A DNA stretch of 64,000 nucleotides from Promethearchaeota archaeon. GTDB taxonomy: Archaea; Asgardarchaeota; Lokiarchaeia; Sigyniarchaeales; SOKP01. The notes under the pieces are model-generated. The model saw nothing but the letters and a program-made list of their open reading frames with translations, was not told the DNA's origin and made no database searches. A program made the position numbers and the translations under genes. Where the stretch lies: NCBI GenBank assembly GCA_030599585.1, contig JAUVNS010000001.1, positions 62,001 to 126,000 on the forward strand. Reading direction: 5' to 3'. This document shows positions 22,183 to 57,393 of the stretch, piece after piece. The first letter of the stretch is position 1. The number at the start of each line of letters is the position of its first letter.

Positions 22183-23220
22183 TTATTGCAACAAGTTATA
22201 AAGCGATTTCGCTATAGTATAAAAGGCATATTCAACATTTTCACCAGTTAAAGCGCTGGTTTCAATGTATCCTAAATTAAGGTAACTCGCGAGATCAGAC
22301 CCTTTTTCAGAAGTGCTCTCTGAAGATTGGCCAATATCTTTTTTATTTCCAATAATATAACCTGTTAAAGCCGGTCTATCTGTTAGCTGGTTCTGAATGT
22401 CATAATACCAATTTGAAACGCTTTCTAGCGAGTTTGGCTTTGATAAGTCGAAGATGAGGAATATGCCATCAGATCCTAAATAGAATTGTTGTCTCATAGT
22501 TTCGAATTTTGCTTGTCCTGCTATGTCCCATAGAACCAATTGTATGTAAGACTCTTCTATTTGAAATATCTTATCCGAGACGTGCACCCCAAGTGTTGGA
22601 ATATAATGCCTTCGAAACGCGTTGTTAGTGAATCTTAATATTAACGAGGATTTACCAACAGAGGGATCGCCACAGATAATTATTTTAAATTTATAATTAA
22701 TTAACTTAGCTTCTTTTATTTTCTGATCAGGAAAAGCTTTTGCGTTTTCCTCAGCGATCTCGTTATTTTTAAACTCGGTTAAAAATTGGTCAATAGTGAG
22801 GAAAATTTCATTTAAAATATCTATATAATTCTCTCTTGGAGCTTTTGATTTTTGCAAGTGTGCAACTTTTTCAGCCACTTCTTCAAATGGAGCCTGAAAA
22901 TAATTCAAATATTTATAAAAGATAACATCGTCAGATTCCTTAAACAATAAGGTAATTGCTCCTTGCCCAATTCCGCCTCGTCTGGACTCATCGTTCCATT
23001 TTATATATTTTATTAATCCTTTTAAATTTAAGGAAGGAAATGGAAGAATTACTAACGATTCAGGAATAAGACCATCTTCTCCTGATAGAACTGTAATTGT
23101 CTTAACACTAATATGAATTCTACTCGATTGAGGAACATCTCCTAACCATACAAATGGATTTGGCCCAAGTTCGTCGTCCAATTCTGTGTACAATATTCCC
23201 TTTATTAGTTTAGCTTCCAT
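22183..23220 (-). CDS. Rab-like small GTPase with N-terminal shared module
   Basis: GDPSVGKSSLILRF (G1), WDIAGQAKFETMRQQFYLGSDGIFLIFDLS (G3), GNKKD (G4), ETSALTGENVEYAF (G5); about 170 aa N-terminal extension with DDELGPNP and LPFPSLNLKGL. Confidence 0.93.
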   Translation of the reverse strand: MEAKLIKGILYTELDDELGPNPFVWLGDVPQSSRIHISVKTITVLSGEDGLIPESLVILPFPSLNLKGLIKYIKWNDESRRGGIGQGAITLLFKESDDVIFYKYLNYFQAPFEEVAEKVAHLQKSKAPRENYIDILNEIFLTIDQFLTEFKNNEIAEENAKAFPDQKIKEAKLINYKFKIIICGDPSVGKSSLILRFTNNAFRRHYIPTLGVHVSDKIFQIEESYIQLVLWDIAGQAKFETMRQQFYLGSDGIFLIFDLSKPNSLESVSNWYYDIQNQLTDRPALTGYIIGNKKDIGQSSESTSEKGSDLASYLNLGYIETSALTGENVEYAFYTIAKSLYNLLQ

Positions 23221-35390: not shown

Positions 35391-36356
35391 TTGACAATTC
35401 AATTTTTAGATGAGAAAAAGAAAACAAAAGAATCCGTTAGCCCAAGTAAACTCCTTTTCACAGGATTGGACAATGCTGGAAAAACGACTATAATCCAAGG
35501 AATTCAGCGTGAGTTTTCGAAAATCGCGTTTCTCAAACCTACACGAGGTGCTCAGAGAAGAATTTTTGAATTTATGGGACGGGAAATTGCAGAATGGGAC
35601 CTCGGGGGACAGATAAGTTATCGAATCTCTTATTTGAAAAACCCTGGAAAGTATTTTGACGACACTGAGATCACTATTTATGTTATAGATGTTCAAAATC
35701 GTGTCAGGATTCCCGAAGCCCTTAGTTATCTAAAAGACGTAGTTGACCGGTTTAAAAAACTTGAAATAGCTCCACCAATATATGTGTTCCTCCATAAATA
35801 CGATCCCGCGCTAAGAAGAAATGCCCTAAACGAAATGAAGAATCTCGAAGTAGAAATTAAGGATAAAATAAAAAGAACCGTAGATTATAAGGAAATCTTT
35901 TATTACACGACATCTATTTATGATTTGCCGAGTATAATTAAAGCCATGTCCGAAATCCTGCTCAGTTTGTATCCGAAATCAGAATTAATTGAAAAAACTA
36001 TAATAGAATTTGGCAAAAAAACCTCTTCTGACGGAGTTGTACTTTTGGATGATAATTCTCTTATCGTTGGAAGCTATTATAAAGACGAGGAAATAAAGAA
36101 TCTCCTCACGGCGAGTACCCCTTATTTTTTGACTTTAAACGATTCATTTATCTTTACCGAAGTACAACCAGGACGCCAACATGAAGAAAATCACATGATT
36201 GTACAAAGATATGGAAGGAATTTTATCTTCAAACAACTTACATTTAAAGAGGGATCGAGTCCTTATTACATCCTTATGCTTAAGCAAGATACGAATATAA
36301 ATAAAGACGAAATTGAAACCTTTGCTAATCTCTTAAAACAAATTTTATATAGTTAA
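35391..36356 (+). CDS. Rag-like GTPase with C-terminal roadblock-like domain (no N-module)
   Basis: TTG start behind GGTGAG; G1 GLDNAGKTTI; G3 WDLGGQISYR; G4 LHKYDP resembling the Rag/Gtr HKxD variant; C-terminal SSDGVVLLDDNSLIVGSYY. Confidence 0.9.
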   Translation: MTIQFLDEKKKTKESVSPSKLLFTGLDNAGKTTIIQGIQREFSKIAFLKPTRGAQRRIFEFMGREIAEWDLGGQISYRISYLKNPGKYFDDTEITIYVIDVQNRVRIPEALSYLKDVVDRFKKLEIAPPIYVFLHKYDPALRRNALNEMKNLEVEIKDKIKRTVDYKEIFYYTTSIYDLPSIIKAMSEILLSLYPKSELIEKTIIEFGKKTSSDGVVLLDDNSLIVGSYYKDEEIKNLLTASTPYFLTLNDSFIFTEVQPGRQHEENHMIVQRYGRNFIFKQLTFKEGSSPYYILMLKQDTNINKDEIETFANLLKQILYS

Positions 36357-39237: not shown

Positions 39238-40650
39238 ATGTCAGAACAGAAAAATAGTATTATTAAATCAATAGTTTTAAGTTTATTTGACGACGATGGA
39301 CCCACCCCTAAGATTTACTGGCCTACAGCAATGGACGAATCGTCACGCTTGCTAATAGCGATGAAAACGATTTCGCTATTAATGGGGGATTCTGTGTATC
39401 AAAATGGAACTTCGTCAGATAGTGTTAATTATTTCGGCATATTACCTTTTCCAGATTTAAAATTGAACGGGTTGACATATTTCTTCTTAATTCTTGATCC
39501 GACGGCCAGAGGCAACGCTAAGGCAGCTACTATTACCGTTCTAATAAATGAAGACGATAGGGTTTTTTTCTACGAAAATATGAAGTATTTAAGAGTCATA
39601 ATAGATAAATCTGCGTCAAGAGTTCAATTAGCTAAAACGATGGAAGAAAACCAAACAATTATGGATGATTTAAAAGAAGAATTATTCAATTTTACTAGCG
39701 AGATAAAGGATCCCTTCCTAAATTTGAGACAAATCAAAATTCTTATGACAGGATTGGATCGAGCGGGAAAAACAAGTTTCTTGCATGCCGTTAAGCAAAG
39801 ATATAGTGAAATTATCAAAACTTTACCAACTAAGGGAGTCGCACGAAGCGAAGAAAAGATATTCGAAGAACAAAATTCTAAGATATCGCTTTGGGATTTA
39901 GGGGGGCAAAAGAAGTACAGAGATAAATTTATTGAACAAAGAAAAGTTTACCTCTACAACGTTGATCTACTTTATTATTTTATAGATATTCAAGATTCAG
40001 AAAGGATTTCGGAAGCAATTGAATTGTTTGAAACCGTCATCAATTCTCTTATCGAATTGGAAGAATTTCCCCCAATTGTTGTATGCCTCAATAAATTTGA
40101 TCCCGATATTAAAAATGCGAAGGAAATTAAAAAAAATATTAAAACTGTAAATGAAAACATTCATTTAATCTCTGAAAGGTTTTTTGTGAAGATTTTCCAG
40201 ACTTCTATCTTTGATCATTGGTCGTTAGTCTCAGCTTATTCCTACGGTTTATCGCAATTAAGCCCTAATAGGGAACTGTTTCAAAATCAATTAAAGCATT
40301 TTGCGAAGAAAATAAATTCCGATGCAATACTATTGCTCAACGAAAATGGAATTATCCTTTCAAATTTCTCTAAGCCTGGCATTTCTGAAAGGGTTTTTGA
40401 AATTTCTGCCCCTCACTTCCAAACATTGTATAAAACATTTAAGGAATTTAAAATACTTAAACAAGATTTTTTAATTTCATCTGGAATAACTTCTGAATCA
40501 AAGAAAATAATATTTAAAAGGATTCCTGTTGAGAAATATAACCTTTACCTACTTTTGTTCTTGGAAAAAGAGCTAAATATTGATAAAATAGATAAAAATT
40601 TACCTAAATTATCTAAAAACTTGAATGATTTAATCCAGACTTACATATAA
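39238..40650 (+). CDS. Rag/Arf-like GTPase with N-terminal shared module and C-terminal roadblock-like domain
   Basis: N-module FDDDGPTP, KTISLLMGD, FGILPFPDLKLNGLTYF; G1 GLDRAGKTSF; G3 WDLGGQKKYR; G4 LNKFDPD; C-terminal SDAILLLNENGIILSNF. Confidence 0.92.
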   Translation: MSEQKNSIIKSIVLSLFDDDGPTPKIYWPTAMDESSRLLIAMKTISLLMGDSVYQNGTSSDSVNYFGILPFPDLKLNGLTYFFLILDPTARGNAKAATITVLINEDDRVFFYENMKYLRVIIDKSASRVQLAKTMEENQTIMDDLKEELFNFTSEIKDPFLNLRQIKILMTGLDRAGKTSFLHAVKQRYSEIIKTLPTKGVARSEEKIFEEQNSKISLWDLGGQKKYRDKFIEQRKVYLYNVDLLYYFIDIQDSERISEAIELFETVINSLIELEEFPPIVVCLNKFDPDIKNAKEIKKNIKTVNENIHLISERFFVKIFQTSIFDHWSLVSAYSYGLSQLSPNRELFQNQLKHFAKKINSDAILLLNENGIILSNFSKPGISERVFEISAPHFQTLYKTFKEFKILKQDFLISSGITSESKKIIFKRIPVEKYNLYLLLFLEKELNIDKIDKNLPKLSKNLNDLIQTYI

Positions 40651-47708: not shown

Positions 47709-48320
47709 TTATTCTAAATTAAAAATAGTCATGATAAAATTCCTCGCTGAGGGTATAATCTGTTTATTTTTAACGCTATTATTCCATTTTTTAATTAATT
47801 GATTATTTTTCGATAAATCTTGTATGACTTTACGACCTAATTTAATCCATTGTTCTAAATTAATAGTTGGATATTCTTCACTTATACCTCTGCAATATTG
47901 AATCCCCTTATCAGTGTAAAATATGTTGATCTCGCTTGTTTTCTTATCTTTGCCTTTTTGAATTGTAAATGTAAAAGGAAAAGTCCTACAAAATCCGGGT
48001 CTAAAAGAATAAATAGAACATCTCTCTTTAGCTTCATCGTAAAAAAAACATTTCCCATTTAATCTCTTTTTCAAACCAGTAAATGCCATTCCTCTTTCAG
48101 TTTGTATAGGTGGAACCACCATTCGATCTATTTCTTTTTCAGAGGGCGCCTGATCAAATACATAAAAGCCTAGAATTTCAAGTACTTCATCGATAGTTAG
48201 ATTTAATCCATTCTTTATTCGAAGAACATCTATGTATGTCGTATTTACAAGCGTATTTAAATCGGTACAACAGTGACCACAGTGTACACATTCAAACTTA
48301 AAGTTATTATTAATACCCAT
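47709..48320 (-). CDS. YkgJ-family cysteine-cluster protein
   Basis: FECVHCGHCCTDLNT ... CFFYDEAKERCSIYSFRPGFCRTFPFTF. Confidence 0.88.
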   Translation of the reverse strand: MGINNNFKFECVHCGHCCTDLNTLVNTTYIDVLRIKNGLNLTIDEVLEILGFYVFDQAPSEKEIDRMVVPPIQTERGMAFTGLKKRLNGKCFFYDEAKERCSIYSFRPGFCRTFPFTFTIQKGKDKKTSEINIFYTDKGIQYCRGISEEYPTINLEQWIKLGRKVIQDLSKNNQLIKKWNNSVKNKQIIPSARNFIMTIFNLE

Positions 48321-48356: not shown

Positions 48357-51300
48357 TTATTTATTTGATGGTATAATAATTTGCTTGTTTATGAGAGTTT
48401 CTATTGCATCTATTATGAGATCTTGATTTTTTTCGTGTACCACTTCAAATATAGTCTCCAGATGAAATTCCTGCTTATTCTTAGCGATCGAGTATATTAC
48501 ATTTAAGATTCGTGTTTCCATCGAATTTAACTCGCTTTCTTTTCTTAATCTTGCAATAAACTTAGCATCGTTGATTTTAAAAGCGTCTTTATAATATAAC
48601 TCTACATATTTTGTTATGATAGGAGGTAATTGTGCTTCAAACTCATGAATTGCTCCGTCCCAGCTTTCTATTAGCTGTGAAAGATCGAACATGATTCCAA
48701 GAGACAAATCTGATATCAATTTCTTCAATCGGTCTGAAGCTTTTTCATTGAGTAAAAAAATCATTCGTAAATCTTGTCGGTCACAGATTAGGCAATAAAA
48801 ATATTTAAAATCTAATTCTAAAATCGTCCTACTACCATCCGAGTCATCAAGATTGGTTGAATCACCATCGACTTCCCTTTTACCTACCATTTCTTCTCCA
48901 ACTGTAATAATAGCTTGGATGAAGCCTGAAAAAAGTTCTTTTTTGTGCTTCTCTAAAATAGAATAACTTTTTGAATAGAGTGGAATGCCGCTATACCTGT
49001 GTATGGCCACAATAGCTTGAATGTTCTGGATATCTTTGAATCTTTGGGTTTTTGACAGTAAATCTGCTTCTTTTCTCCTTCTTCGTGGTAAAATCACGTA
49101 AGATCTCAAGCTTAATATTCCTAAAACACTTATAATCGCCACTGCAATAAAGAATATAATAAACATTAATAACACAGGAAATTCTGGTTCGCCAATTACC
49201 AAGAGAAATGAAGATTGCATCGATTTATAAAGAACATTTTCTGTTGAAATAATTAAAGACACCTTAAAACTTCCATGGATATTTTCTGGGATCTCAAGTT
49301 CAATTTCATAAATTCCATTTCCTACTTCTTCAAAATTACCTAATCCAAAGTCCCACGAATACGAGATTGTAGTATTCTCAATAGAAATGGCTGAAATAAG
49401 TTCAGTTAAATTAATTCTAATGACTAAAGAATTTCCAGCAAGACTTTCAATTGAATCTTGAAAATCAATAGTATCAACTTTCATTTCTATTTGATTAACT
49501 AAAATCTGAAAGTAAAAGGTTGAGGATGTGTAATTCGGATGTAGAAACCTAACATAAACAGAATTAATCCCCAAATCGAAATTAGCAAGATCACATACAA
49601 CAGATGTGTTATACCAATAGTTAGCAGTTTGAGTAAAATCTTGATTATAACTACCAATAGCAATAATGGCACTACCACCATCAAGAAAAACTTTTTCTAC
49701 ATTTGCGAGAGCTCTTATTGATAGAGAGAATACGTCATAATATGTGATTTGAATTAAACTATTCGCATCAATTTCTTGTGAATCTATATATAACGACAAA
49801 TTAACTGTTTCAGCGGTTATAAAAAATTGGAATGAAAAATAAGCTTCAGAATAATTAGCTTGCTCAAATTTAACAGATACAGTATTGATTCCTAATTCAA
49901 AGTTAGCTCCATCTATTACAATATCTGTAGAAAACCACGTGAGATAAGTTACATTTTCATTAATGTTAAAAGAAAACATTTCACCTATTATGGTTATATT
50001 TCCTCCGGAAAGAAAAATACCCTCTCCCATAGCATATGCTTGTGCAGCAATTGTTATATTCTCCTTAAGCATTACTTCAATTAGAGCGTTTTCGAGGATA
50101 GATTGACTATTGATTGATACGTTAAGTTGGACTGATTGTTCTCTAACTAATAATTGAAATGAAAAGTATGTTGTTGTATAATTTTGCTTTTCGAATTTAA
50201 TTGAAACGGTATTAATCCCTGAACTGAAATTTATCGCTGAAAAAGTTAAGGATAAATTATACCAATTGGCTCCATATTCAATGAAATTTGTAATATAAAA
50301 TTCGCTATTCCAAGAAATGTAAGCCTCATCAATGTAATTCGAATCAATCTCACCATAGACTCTCGCAGAGATTGTTATATTTTGTTTAAACATTACTTCA
50401 ACTAACTGATCTTCTGCAATTTGTTGAGAATTCAAGTATAATGAAAAATCGACCGATTGTTCTTCTACAAGTAGTTGAAAATAAAAGATTTCGTGTTGGA
50501 AATTATCTTTTATGAATTCTATTGCTATACTGTTTAATCCTGGAGTATAATTTGATGGCACTATTTGAATTGATGTATTATACCAATCTGCTCCTACCTC
50601 AATTAGAGTTCTATCTTGATCTCCACCTTGCCAAGTTATTAACGCTCCATTTACATAATCTGCTTCAATTGTTGCGAATGCTTTTGCTGAAATAGTAATG
50701 CTTTCCATATACATTATTTCAACTATCTCATTCTCCAAAATTGGTTGAGAATTGATAAATACAGACAGATCGACTGGTTGCTCATATACTAACAATTGGA
50801 AATAGAATATATCGGTTTGATATTTATCCATTTCAAACTGTATCCCAATTAAATTTAATCCAGGTGAGTAAATTGATGGATTAAATTGAATGGAAGTATT
50901 ATACCAAAAATTAGAATATTCGTTTAATGTCTGTTCATAACTATTGATTTTCCACGAGAAATTTCCTCCCGTTAAAAGATTGTCATCAATCAAGGCTCTA
51001 GCTTGAGTAGAGATGTTTATCTCTTCCATAAATATAACTTCAATTATTGAATTTCGATAAATTTCTACATTATCAATATAAGCAGTGATATTGACACTCT
51101 GTTCTACAATCTCAAATTGATATATGTGCGTTTGAGGTTCAAAAGAAGGAGCAGAAAAATTGAAGTTAAGCTGTTTTATACCTAAGTTATTAGTAAATGA
51201 AGTATCAAATTCAATATTATAATAACCACCCGGTAAATTTTCAATGCTATATAGGTCAGGATTTGATATATTAACACCTACAGTCGCTCCATCAATTCCT

Positions 51301-53870
51301 TCGCTATCTAATAGTGAATAATATCTAAATTCTATTGTGCTATTTGCGTGCAACTCTATATTATAATCAGACTGAAGTCGTTGCACGTTAGTTTCCTCTC
51401 CAAGGTTAATTTTCAAAGTCAAATTATAATCTAAGAACCCTACTTTTGAAGATTCAATTAAAATCTCATAAAAACCATTTGATCCTAATAATGAAGTATC
51501 TAAAATGGTCTCATAAATTCCAAAACCGGCTTCTACAAAATCTACTGTTCCTGAGGTCCAATTATAGGAAATTAATGCATTTAAAATAAAATCATTGTTA
51601 TCAGAATCTGTTAAATTTACTTGTACGGGTATAATATCTCCAATAAATGCGTCTGTTATGGAATCAGAAATGGCATCATTAGGTTTAAGAAGTGAGAATG
51701 AACTCTGATGTATAACTAAAAAACTAGCGTTTAATCCCCCTATAGAAGTGCCATTAGACCAAAAGAGCGTGTAATCATATTGTCCTCCAGTTGTATTTAA
51801 TGCATCAAAAAATAACTCAGAAAAGAACACGCTTCCATTTGACAAGGGTGAATTTACTTCTGAATACCACTGATTTCCTTCGGGATCAAATATCGTTAAG
51901 TTTACTTCTGTTGAACCAAGATTATTAGGAATTTCACCGCTGTAATTTACTTGAGTTTTAATTCGTGTTGATTCGCCGGTATTAAAACTGGTGTGTGTCC
52001 ATTCACCTTGTTTCAACATTTTTGTATTTGTTATATCGAGATAATTTGGAGAGGTCGCTTTAAATGACCACCAACCAGGATAAAGCGCATTTGTTTTATT
52101 AATTTTTAATAATAAATCGCCAATATTTCCGTTTTCAAATGGTCGAGAAAGAAGAGTTGGGTCTAGAGCGTAGAGAAACTCCCAATTTACAGGTTTATCA
52201 ATTATAAATTCAAAATCCGAATACTGAGAAGGCATGTAGAAATTATGTGAAAAATACCAATATACTGAGCCATTTTCTAAGATTTCATAAGAGATTCCTT
52301 CAACTATAGTTTGCCCTACCCTTGAAGTAGTTTCGTGATATCCATACAAAAAAGTGTCCAATTCAAAAGTAAGCGAAGGTGAACTTGTATTTGCGGTAAG
52401 AACTACAGGATTTACACCCCAATTCCCCGTAATATTTAACTCTGATTCTCCCCATTGGTCTCCTTGAGTAAGAGAATACCCGTTTAACGTAAGATTTATA
52501 TCGCTTTGACTTGAATTTGCGAGCGTAATAAGTACTAAAGATAAATTATCAAACCAAAAGAGTTGTTGGAATCGTTCATCAAAACCGGAATATGTTATTG
52601 TACCACCACTCATAATACCAACTGAGATATTAAACTCTTGATTATTTTGAATTTCTTCAAATAAGCTCGAAGTATTCGACCATAAGTCTAGATGTATTTC
52701 TCCAGTACTTAACCAAGTTCGCCTACCACTTCCATCACCAACAATATCCCCTAAACCTTTAGAGTAAATTTTTTTATTATTTATCTCACAATACAAAAAA
52801 TTTTCGTTAGAATCCATTGCGTATTCAGCATAGTAATCGAAACTTATATAACCATCAATAATTTGGCCTCGAGGAATAGTTATGTTTTGATAGATTTCTG
52901 AAAAGTCGTTTTCGTAATAAGATACCTCTATCCTTCCGTCTCTGGCGGGATTTCCTACTAAGCTGACATACATCGCTGTTTCATTTTCCATGGTAGAAGA
53001 ACCAAAATTACCTCCTATTGTAGCATTATCATATCCCCAATGATCGAAGCTATCATAGTATTCTATACCGTCATAGATATATTCGTAATAGTCAATATCG
53101 TAACCCCACCATTGAACCGATCCATCGGAATCCATAGTAATTTTTATATTTGTTGTTTTAATCCAAGGGCTAAAAAATGATGCTTTATTTCCTGTGTCAA
53201 CATATTGTAGTATGTTATTCTCATCGTAAAAACAAACTATGTCCCAATCTTCTTCTATTTCAAATCTGTCAAAATGAACTCGTATTAATGACGCATTATT
53301 TTGAGTTATTTCACTATGGATGTTTGCAGGAGTAGCAGGATCTCGAGATAAATCCGCGGTGTAATTATGTCGAGGCGGAGATGTGTCTGGAATATTTGTT
53401 AACGATACATTTACTCTATAAGTAGAAACTTCTGAGTAGTCGTTGTTTTTAACCCATTCTCTTGTATCTTGAATGTTTCGGATGTTTGTTTCTATTTTTG
53501 ATATCTCCCAATCATGAACATCGTCGAGAGTGTAATTAATTTCGAGTTCTTCCTGACTCGTTAAAGAAATTAGTTGATTATTTTCATATAAGTTACCGTA
53601 ATCTGTTATATTTAAAGATATTTCATTTCCTTCAAATAAAATTGAATCAGAATCGGCAAGTAAGGGTGACTGGGAATAATAATTAAAGTCGCTGTCTATT
53701 TTTTTAATATTTTTGGAATTTGGAATGAGAAAACTACTTGAAAGAAATATACCTAATATAATAATAAGATAGGCTATTCTCAGAACTAATGATTTTTTTA
53801 AAAGTGAATTATTAGAAACCTTTTTCATACTATCCCCTGTTGTTAAATAAAAAATAATTATAAAACTCAT
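48357..53870 (-). CDS. giant cell-surface repeat protein with single C-terminal TM and cytosolic longin-like + winged-helix tail
   Basis: 1837 aa; N-terminal hydrophobic segment; extracellular N-glycosylation-like NxS/T-rich beta region with about five ~107-aa repeats; TM FPVLLMFIIFFIAVAIISVLGIL; cytosolic IQAIVAIHRYSGIPLYSKSYSILEKHKKELFSGFIQAIITVGEEMVG... Confidence 0.85.
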   Translation of the reverse strand: MSFIIIFYLTTGDSMKKVSNNSLLKKSLVLRIAYLIIILGIFLSSSFLIPNSKNIKKIDSDFNYYSQSPLLADSDSILFEGNEISLNITDYGNLYENNQLISLTSQEELEINYTLDDVHDWEISKIETNIRNIQDTREWVKNNDYSEVSTYRVNVSLTNIPDTSPPRHNYTADLSRDPATPANIHSEITQNNASLIRVHFDRFEIEEDWDIVCFYDENNILQYVDTGNKASFFSPWIKTTNIKITMDSDGSVQWWGYDIDYYEYIYDGIEYYDSFDHWGYDNATIGGNFGSSTMENETAMYVSLVGNPARDGRIEVSYYENDFSEIYQNITIPRGQIIDGYISFDYYAEYAMDSNENFLYCEINNKKIYSKGLGDIVGDGSGRRTWLSTGEIHLDLWSNTSSLFEEIQNNQEFNISVGIMSGGTITYSGFDERFQQLFWFDNLSLVLITLANSSQSDINLTLNGYSLTQGDQWGESELNITGNWGVNPVVLTANTSSPSLTFELDTFLYGYHETTSRVGQTIVEGISYEILENGSVYWYFSHNFYMPSQYSDFEFIIDKPVNWEFLYALDPTLLSRPFENGNIGDLLLKINKTNALYPGWWSFKATSPNYLDITNTKMLKQGEWTHTSFNTGESTRIKTQVNYSGEIPNNLGSTEVNLTIFDPEGNQWYSEVNSPLSNGSVFFSELFFDALNTTGGQYDYTLFWSNGTSIGGLNASFLVIHQSSFSLLKPNDAISDSITDAFIGDIIPVQVNLTDSDNNDFILNALISYNWTSGTVDFVEAGFGIYETILDTSLLGSNGFYEILIESSKVGFLDYNLTLKINLGEETNVQRLQSDYNIELHANSTIEFRYYSLLDSEGIDGATVGVNISNPDLYSIENLPGGYYNIEFDTSFTNNLGIKQLNFNFSAPSFEPQTHIYQFEIVEQSVNITAYIDNVEIYRNSIIEVIFMEEINISTQARALIDDNLLTGGNFSWKINSYEQTLNEYSNFWYNTSIQFNPSIYSPGLNLIGIQFEMDKYQTDIFYFQLLVYEQPVDLSVFINSQPILENEIVEIMYMESITISAKAFATIEADYVNGALITWQGGDQDRTLIEVGADWYNTSIQIVPSNYTPGLNSIAIEFIKDNFQHEIFYFQLLVEEQSVDFSLYLNSQQIAEDQLVEVMFKQNITISARVYGEIDSNYIDEAYISWNSEFYITNFIEYGANWYNLSLTFSAINFSSGINTVSIKFEKQNYTTTYFSFQLLVREQSVQLNVSINSQSILENALIEVMLKENITIAAQAYAMGEGIFLSGGNITIIGEMFSFNINENVTYLTWFSTDIVIDGANFELGINTVSVKFEQANYSEAYFSFQFFITAETVNLSLYIDSQEIDANSLIQITYYDVFSLSIRALANVEKVFLDGGSAIIAIGSYNQDFTQTANYWYNTSVVCDLANFDLGINSVYVRFLHPNYTSSTFYFQILVNQIEMKVDTIDFQDSIESLAGNSLVIRINLTELISAISIENTTISYSWDFGLGNFEEVGNGIYEIELEIPENIHGSFKVSLIISTENVLYKSMQSSFLLVIGEPEFPVLLMFIIFFIAVAIISVLGILSLRSYVILPRRRRKEADLLSKTQRFKDIQNIQAIVAIHRYSGIPLYSKSYSILEKHKKELFSGFIQAIITVGEEMVGKREVDGDSTNLDDSDGSRTILELDFKYFYCLICDRQDLRMIFLLNEKASDRLKKLISDLSLGIMFDLSQLIESWDGAIHEFEAQLPPIITKYVELYYKDAFKINDAKFIARLRKESELNSMETRILNVIYSIAKNKQEFHLETIFEVVHEKNQDLIIDAIETLINKQIIIPSNK
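49495..51103 (-). repeat. about five tandem ~107-aa beta-sandwich repeats inside 48357..53870
   Basis: Repeat starts: EQSVNITAYIDNVEI, EQPVDLSVFINSQPI, EQSVDFSLYLNSQQI, EQSVQLNVSINSQSI, AETVNLSLYIDSQEI; repeat ends: GIQFEMDKYQTDIFYFQLLV, AIEFIKDNFQHEIFYFQLLV, SIKFEKQNYTTTYFSFQLLV, SVKFEQANYSEAYFSFQFFI, YVRFLHPNYTSSTFYFQILV. Confidence 0.85.
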
Positions 53871-56343: not shown

Positions 56344-57393
56344 ATGAAGAAGCTAATTGATGCTGTAATATATACAGATGTTCACGATGAACTCGGTCCG
56401 AATCCCATTCTTTGGCTACCGCCAAATTTACCTGAATCTGTCAGAATGTTAGTAGGAATTAAAACTGTAACATTACTTACAGGTGACCAAGGGTCTGTAC
56501 CAGATTCGCTATTAATAATCCCTTTTCCTTCACTTAAATTAAAAGGATTAATTAGATATATAGAAAGAGAAGATGAAAGTAAAAGAGGAGGATTCGCAAG
56601 AAGTGCAATAACATTCTTGTTTAAAGAAACAGATGATGTGATTTTCTATAAATATATGGGTTATCTTAAAGCTCCCTTCGATGAAACTTCGAGAAAAATA
56701 ATTGAATTAGAGAACAACCATGCAGAAAGTTCAAAAATCTTTGAAGAGATTAAAATTTTACGAGATAGCGTCAGTGAATTACTAGATGATTTTAGAACTA
56801 AAGAAATAACTTCACCAGCATCAAAAGAATTTCCAGAAAAACGAGTTAAAGATGATAAAGTAGTAGATTATAGACTTAAACTCGTAATAGTTGGAGATCC
56901 TGGAGTAGGTAAGACATCTACCATACTAAGATTTACTGATAACGCGTTCTTAAGAACATATGTTCCAACACTTGGGGTATCCATTACTGAAAAATTATTT
57001 GATACCAAAAGCGGAGTAATAGAAACGATCTTATGGGACATCGCAGGACAAGCAAAATTTGAGACGATGAGAAGACATTTCTACCAAGGCTCTGAGGCGA
57101 TATTACTTATTTTTGATCTAACTAATAGAAATTCCTTTACAAGTATAAAATCGTGGTATCATGACGTTATGAAAAACATGGAGAAACATCACCACAAAAT
57201 GTCGGGTTATATTTTTGGAAATAAAAGTGATTTAATCGAACTACGAAAAGTTAAATTAGTTGAAGCTTTAGCTTTAGCTAAGGAATTGAATTTAAAATAC
57301 ATAGAAATATCTGCCCTAACTGGTAAAAATGTCGAATACGCTTTTTATGATATTGCCAACACAGTCGTAAAAATGCGTTTGAACAAACCTTAA
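56344..57393 (+). CDS. Rab-like small GTPase with N-terminal shared module
   Basis: GDPGVGKTSTILRF, WDIAGQAKFETMRRHFYQGSEAILLIFDLT, GNKSD, EISALTGKNVEYAF; N-module DELGPNP, KTVTLLTGD, IPFPSLKLKGL; close paralog of 22183..23220. Confidence 0.94.
   Translation: MKKLIDAVIYTDVHDELGPNPILWLPPNLPESVRMLVGIKTVTLLTGDQGSVPDSLLIIPFPSLKLKGLIRYIEREDESKRGGFARSAITFLFKETDDVIFYKYMGYLKAPFDETSRKIIELENNHAESSKIFEEIKILRDSVSELLDDFRTKEITSPASKEFPEKRVKDDKVVDYRLKLVIVGDPGVGKTSTILRFTDNAFLRTYVPTLGVSITEKLFDTKSGVIETILWDIAGQAKFETMRRHFYQGSEAILLIFDLTNRNSFTSIKSWYHDVMKNMEKHHHKMSGYIFGNKSDLIELRKVKLVEALALAKELNLKYIEISALTGKNVEYAFYDIANTVVKMRLNKP

Follow-up and report, generated by a model that had tools for sequence, protein, structure and literature searches.

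A giant Lokiarchaeal surface protein with a predicted longin tail and a mosaic exterior

In a window of 64,000 nucleotides from a Lokiarchaeal genome, one gene encodes what we read, at a probability of about 0.55, as a single-pass surface receptor, in which signals from a variable exterior would reach small GTPases by way of a conserved longin platform. Sequence comparison and structure prediction showed how its domains are ordered, the assignment of its tail to the longins by fold and by family, recurrence throughout the phylum and a mosaic exterior joined to a conserved tail. The host Lokiarchaeon is a close archaeal relative of eukaryotes, and the predicted tail fold is one that eukaryotes use for the control of small GTPases. 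The source genome (label G000, window on contig C20) is a metagenome-assembled genome (MAG) with an estimated contamination of 8.9%.

The gene is an uninterrupted frame of 1837 codons on the minus strand, a strand left unstated in a preliminary description of this DNA. The plus strand of the same interval (48357-53870) has many stops. Since the frame and the tail are under strong purifying selection, the ORF is not due to chance; the tail, of about 247 aa, is 51-94% identical in 30 out of 31 Lokiarchaeal relatives and 34% identical in the remaining one. The true start is probably Met15 rather than codon 1, because Met15 closely follows a purine-rich AGGGGAT and orthologues show the context TTGDxMK again. 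Residue numbers follow the 1837-codon numbering throughout. For the tail we used an alignment with 32 relatives (A1) and a profile from 29 diverse relatives (A2). The features of the protein and of the adjoining gene are as follows.

48357-53870, minus strand: whole ORF, 1837 codons; likely true start at 53828 (Met15, 1823 aa)
53712-53786, minus strand: N-terminal signal peptide or signal anchor, residues ~29-53, by hydropathy; also in full-length orthologues
52071-53708, minus strand: distal ectodomain, called the tip, residues ~55-600, all beta in the AF2 model; the most divergent part among orthologues
51105-52073, minus strand: beta domains of the stalk, residues ~600-922, from AF2; a second segment, exchanged independently
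49497-51104, minus strand: five tandem beta repeats R1-R5, residues 923-1458, 106-109 aa each
49185-49496, minus strand: membrane-proximal domain, residues 1459-1562
49110-49178, minus strand: transmembrane (TM) helix, residues ~1565-1587, hydropathy peak 3.1; kept in homologues
49023-49109, minus strand: polybasic juxtamembrane segment and helix, residues 1588-1616, from charge and an AF2 helix at positions 6-26 of the tail
48588-49022, minus strand: longin domain, residues 1617-1761, from AF2 topology, Foldseek against PDB, the A2 profile and overlap with Fuz_longin_1 loci
48369-48566, minus strand: C-terminal winged-helix-like segment, residues ~1769-1834, from AF2
47709-48320, minus strand: PF03692 (CxxCxxCC) metal-site protein, Pfam E 1.5e-13, 36 bp downstream on the same strand

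Hydropathy, on which the signal and TM assignments rest, marks two strong hydrophobic segments, at residues ~23-53 and 1553-1590. The second contains the single TM helix and is followed by RSYVILPRRRRKE. Along the protein, the signal or anchor thus precedes about 1500 sequon-rich residues, one TM helix, the polybasic juxtamembrane segment and a 247-aa tail. The ectodomain carries 49 N-glycosylation sequons where shuffled sequence predicts 23, and the tail has none; the juxtamembrane net charge is +3 to +6 across 32 orthologues. By hydropathy and these statistics the protein has the signal or anchor, glycosylatable exterior, one TM helix and positive-inside tail of a single-pass surface receptor or adhesin. 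The preliminary description had pictured a large surface protein with an N-terminal hydrophobic segment, an NxS/T-rich exterior, some five tandem repeats and one C-terminal TM helix; all of this was borne out, the repeats number exactly five, and the two tail sequences it quoted are present where it placed them.

The same layout was found in 53 of 53 long homologues from Lokiarchaeia and related classes, a set defined by full ORFs with more than 300 residues ahead of the longin. Their ectodomains hold 1958 sequons versus 880 expected, with every one of the 53 above 1.3-fold, and their tails are depleted (55 versus 74). The net charge is at least +3 in the 20 residues after the TM helix and averages -1.8 before it. 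These sequon and charge statistics support an inside position of the tail, and the opposite topology, which would have spoken against the original proposal, was not encountered.

The AF2 model of the tail, computed on A1, is of moderate confidence (pLDDT 75.9, pTM 0.70), with pLDDT mostly between 70 and 90 except in one loop and at the start of α1. In the model a juxtamembrane helix is followed by β1-β2-α1-β3-β4-β5-α2-α3, which is the longin topology, and then by helix-helix-helix-strand. All 50 best Foldseek matches listed against PDB are proteins of the longin/roadblock superfold; the TM-score over the target is 0.71 for the Sec22b longin (1ifq) and 0.63 for a TRAPP core chain, and MP1/p14, AP sigma and zeta-COP are among the further matches. 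The check proposed at the outset for a longin- or roadblock-like tail, structure prediction followed by Foldseek, therefore came out in its favor, and we assign the predicted fold to the longins. Searches with the tail alone, with A1 and with A2 against Pfam and PDB sequences gave nothing significant, as did searches of the whole protein against Pfam and NCBIfam.

A roadblock/LC7 tail, in which the juxtamembrane helix would serve as the roadblock α1, is improbable. A helix does precede β1 in the model of this protein, and roadblock proteins occur among the fold matches. The roadblock architecture has an N-terminal α1 and a single C-terminal helix, whereas two helices follow β5 here, as in longins. 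In addition, the domains of relatives, including the longin-Arf fusion L164, start 6-10 residues past the preceding stop codon, which leaves no space for α1, and relatives match a longin Pfam family and not Robl_LC7. The longin assignment is preferred over roadblock because of the two helices and these short leaders.

R-SNARE longins, e.g. Sec22b, likewise place a longin fold on a single-TM protein. The Lokiarchaeal protein differs from them in its reversed order, with the TM helix before the longin, in its giant ectodomain and in the winged-helix-like segment that follows in place of a SNARE helix; we thus rejected membership in the R-SNAREs. The same evidence bears on the idea that the longin is a trafficking handle, i.e. 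a sorting signal or adaptor-like module that sends giant surface proteins into vesicles or protrusions. This would agree with the matches to Sec22b, AP sigma chains and zeta-COP, and with longins combined with adaptin appendage and Vps28-C domains in a published Asgard survey (PMC10936438). We consider it unlikely given the missing SNARE helix and the inverted domain order, and given that cultured strains have no reported internal compartments (PMC10933270).

The C-terminal segment behind the longin is modelled as three helices and a C-terminal strand. It had been called wHTH-like; the predicted helix and strand pattern fits this, but the best library matches, to SarA-type and RuvB_C winged helices, stay below significance. 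Both the pattern and these weak matches could be taken to suggest a one-component transcription regulator that sits in the membrane and binds DNA through the winged helix. We give this very little credence: there is no significant match, the segment is near neutral (mean net charge -0.1 in 32 sequences), and the putative recognition helix, NQDLIIDAIETLINK in this protein, is slightly acidic (mean -0.8 in the same number of sequences). Because of these charges, a protein contact is favoured over DNA binding as the probable role of the segment.

To place the tail in a family, we relied on its relatives, since the tail itself matches neither Fuz_longin_1 nor any other Pfam model. The A2 profile detects 33 sites in the source genome, and five of these loci also match Fuz_longin_1 (PF19036), the first longin of FUZ, MON1 and HPS1 (C12:38.8k, C34:152.5k, C40:80.6k, C22:12.2k and C21:186.2k), the first two above its curated cut-off. 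Fuz_longin_1-type matches are present in 57 of 61 genomes (60 relatives and the source genome); among 14 control genomes none matched at E 0.01, and two controls had weak matches at the laxer E 1. Sequence comparison through these shared loci indicates that the tail family is homologous to the MON1/FUZ/HPS1 longins of eukaryotic Rab-GEF complexes, which have the same fold class. MON1, FUZ and HPS1 longins are soluble multi-longin GEF subunits.

The family recurs throughout the phylum. With the tail as a single-sequence query, relatives were found in 56 of 61 genomes, and the A2 family occurs in 227 of 232 Asgard genomes, in all 46 high-quality ones and in 61 of 63 genera, counts that include soluble and multi-TM longins of the family. 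More distant Asgard families, with examples of up to 2042 aa, also have a large sequon-bearing ectodomain, a TM helix and then a longin. The same longin also follows a set of six or seven TM helices in some proteins, and one soluble paralogue has it in front of a helical C-terminal region that is probably TPR-like. The family longin is a modular output domain. Proteins of the source genome with about 6-7 TM helices and a C-terminal longin (L150, L151, L155, L162) constitute a second type of membrane protein with longin output, and arrays of two or three surface-longin paralogues of 740-810 aa, some in tandem, were also observed (L072, L073, L122, L123, L124).

Asgard longins are already known (PMC4917890, PMC10933270, PMC9834061, PMC10936438), and 41 longin-like domains have been counted in Loki (PMC4917890). 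They belong to the same domain family, as the tail profile recovers 33 domains that include two longin-Arf fusions of the source genome. Within the consulted parts of PMC4917890, PMC10933270 and PMC10936438, the published examples are soluble or fused to a GTPase, TRAPPC3, Vps28-C or adaptin, and none ends a single-pass protein with a large ectodomain. In the open-access papers searched we found no description of giant single-pass surface proteins that end in a cytosolic longin, or of their mosaic exteriors, though subscription papers or preprints may hold one. The preliminary description had seen neither the phylum-wide family nor the mosaic.

The exterior is predicted to be built of beta domains. 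The AF2 model of residues 50-1136 is beta throughout (pLDDT 74), and its pTM of 0.37 makes the global domain arrangement unreliable. The repeats R1-R5 share 30-45% identity with one another. Foldseek matches of the ectodomain are strings of beta-sandwiches from axonemal central-apparatus proteins, S-layer proteins, RTX adhesins, macroglobulin/complement domains and an Ig receptor. Such matches are generic; they point to a tandem of beta-sandwiches and to no particular ligand. Copies of the protein's own beta repeat are borne by giant ORFs, one of 1556 aa, at another locus of the source genome (L079, G000:C8:1-11000), and these ORFs were not recovered by the tail profile.

We compared orthologous loci, whose orthology is firm because they share the downstream PF03692 gene, a convergent gene of 526 aa and an upstream PfkB kinase gene. 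The PF03692 gene is kept beside the receptor gene in nearly all of them, and its product is a possible functional partner. The relationships of tip and stalk depart from those of the tail. In the tail the window protein is 94% identical to L029 and 92% to L030 (91-94% among the three) and 74-80% identical to L036 and L037. In the tip (residues 120-320) it groups with L036 and L037 (72%) and is 34% identical to L029 and L030, whereas over the stalk (600-922) its group consists of L030 (91%) and L033 (81%), with L029 (68%) outside. The clade of window, L029 and L030, chosen from the tail ahead of testing, has support of 98/98 in the tail tree and is rejected by the tip (AU p 9e-9), the mid-tip (2e-103) and the stalk (4e-10). 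Tip and stalk thus form discrete classes common to several species and at odds with the tail tree (AU p ≤ 1e-8), and the number of repeats among orthologues is 0, 1, 3, 4 or 5.

These sequence comparisons indicate that the orthologues are mosaics, with an exterior reshuffled between species and a conserved tail. The mosaic requires recombination between lineages or gene conversion among copies that have since been lost. Chimeric assemblies or MAGs are an unlikely source: the same classes occur in MAGs of separately named projects (L030, L034 and L039; window, L036 and L037), and the tail and the flanking genes are mutually consistent. VARTIG of Thermococcales (PMC8416519) offer the closest evolutionary parallel: they too are large beta/Ig-like proteins of archaea that have diversified through interspecies recombination. 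Their variable part is the C-terminal Ig region, and a gene module lies downstream of it, whereas in the Lokiarchaeal protein the N-terminal tip and stalk vary and both the C-terminal longin and the flanking genes are conserved. It is accordingly not a member of VARTIG, which are defined by a hypervariable C-terminal Ig region and a variable gene module. The exchange of modules adds a case, from beyond Thermococcales, of an archaeal surface protein diversified by recombination within its gene.

A very long beta-repeat stalk of variable copy number could also belong to a structural adhesin, which would bind partner cells or surfaces and use the longin tail only as an anchor to an inner scaffold, such as a GTPase or cytoskeleton platform, with no ligand-triggered signalling. 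The S-layer and RTX adhesin matches are in line with this, and cultured Lokiarchaea bear many complex surface proteins and protrusions (PMC9834061). We regard such an adhesin as possible but less likely than a receptor, because the tail is conserved far beyond the apparent need of an anchor, including helix α1 (mean 0.86) and strands β1-β5, and because the use of the same longin on multi-TM and soluble proteins fits a regulatory output module better. The receptor reading is further supported by the reassortment of tip and stalk classes between species while the tail stays conserved, which argues for a role in recognition.

We searched for links between the longin family and small GTPases. The source genome encodes about 76 Ras-family GTPases. 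Two of its ORFs join a family longin to an Arf-like GTPase (L158, 318 aa, and L164, 496 aa; A2 E 3e-13 and 1e-9). The latter (L164:1486-2973, plus strand) combines longin, Arf-like GTPase and roadblock in one ORF (Pfam Arf, Robl_LC7). In five genomes the soluble longin-tail paralogue (L074 and relatives) is followed, 0.1-0.8 kb downstream and in the same orientation, by a Ras-like gene; in three others no GTPase gene was found within the stretch examined. Single loci show a GTPase gene 117 bp upstream of a surface paralogue of the source genome and 43 bp downstream of a surface longin of a distant family. Most surface longins examined have no GTPase gene next door; for the arrays of 750-aa surface paralogues, a GTPase is linked at one source-genome locus and at none of thirteen loci from other genomes.

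For the receptor gene itself, no operonic or adjacent GTPase gene was found; the nearest (56344-57393) is 2.4 kb away, divergent, and present in five orthologous loci. The earlier suggestion that the protein signals to the GTPase network is thus upheld as an association, through the longin-Arf fusions and the Ras-like neighbours of the soluble paralogue, but not by any GTPase adjoining the gene. According to PMC10933270, small-GTPase genes of MK-D1 generally lie outside the operons of longin genes, and some longins serve SNARE or coat functions without regulating GTPases. We conclude that coupling to GTPases is likely for the longin domain, and it would be an extrapolation for this particular protein.

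In the mechanism that we propose, the interchangeable beta-rich tip would bind something outside, be it a partner cell, kin, a polymer or a virus, and would be held out on an extensible stalk of beta-sandwich repeats. The TM helix and the basic juxtamembrane helix may carry binding or clustering to the cytosolic longin; that a ligand is bound, that a signal crosses the membrane and that a GTPase is controlled directly are all inferred. As a membrane-fixed platform, the longin could recruit, and possibly activate, a Ras/Arf/Rag-like GTPase at the contact site, in the manner of the MON1-CCZ1, TRAPP and MglB platforms, and the recruited GTPase would then act on the membrane or the cytoskeleton. 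The winged-helix-like end probably serves as one more site of protein-protein contact. Longin and roadblock dimers are platforms for small GTPases elsewhere (PMC10933270). The MglB and Ragulator platforms share the superfold and are membrane-located platforms for Ras/Rag-like GTPases (PMC10933270); they differ from the receptor in being roadblock rather than longin, soluble or lipid-anchored, and without an ectodomain.

Asgard genomes have dozens of longins and scores of small GTPases, and the receptor layout offers them a candidate signal input: in almost every Asgard lineage sampled, it sets a longin at the plasma membrane immediately behind a large surface domain that recombines. Should the coupling be true, it yields specific and testable receptor-GTPase pairs, and the GTPase machinery of eukaryotic internal membranes may first have read the cell exterior. 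More broadly, Asgard receptors across the phylum may signal from recombining recognition ectodomains through the longin to small GTPases, by a route that may predate the longin GEFs on eukaryotic internal membranes; we offer this wider view tentatively, at somewhat less than even odds.

The window contains further GTPase genes. The products of 56344-57393 (plus strand) and 22183-23220 (minus strand) are paralogues with 48% identity, in which about 170 N-terminal residues precede a Ras-family GTPase; by eye, this N-terminal part could be another longin-like domain. A RagA-like GTPase (39238-40650, plus strand) matches Pfam Folliculin weakly in its N-terminal part (E 0.0046), and by this sequence match it is a possible longin-Rag fusion. 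The nearest Rag-type gene within the window (35391-36356, plus strand) encodes a Gtr1/RagA-like GTPase (Pfam E 1.7e-26).
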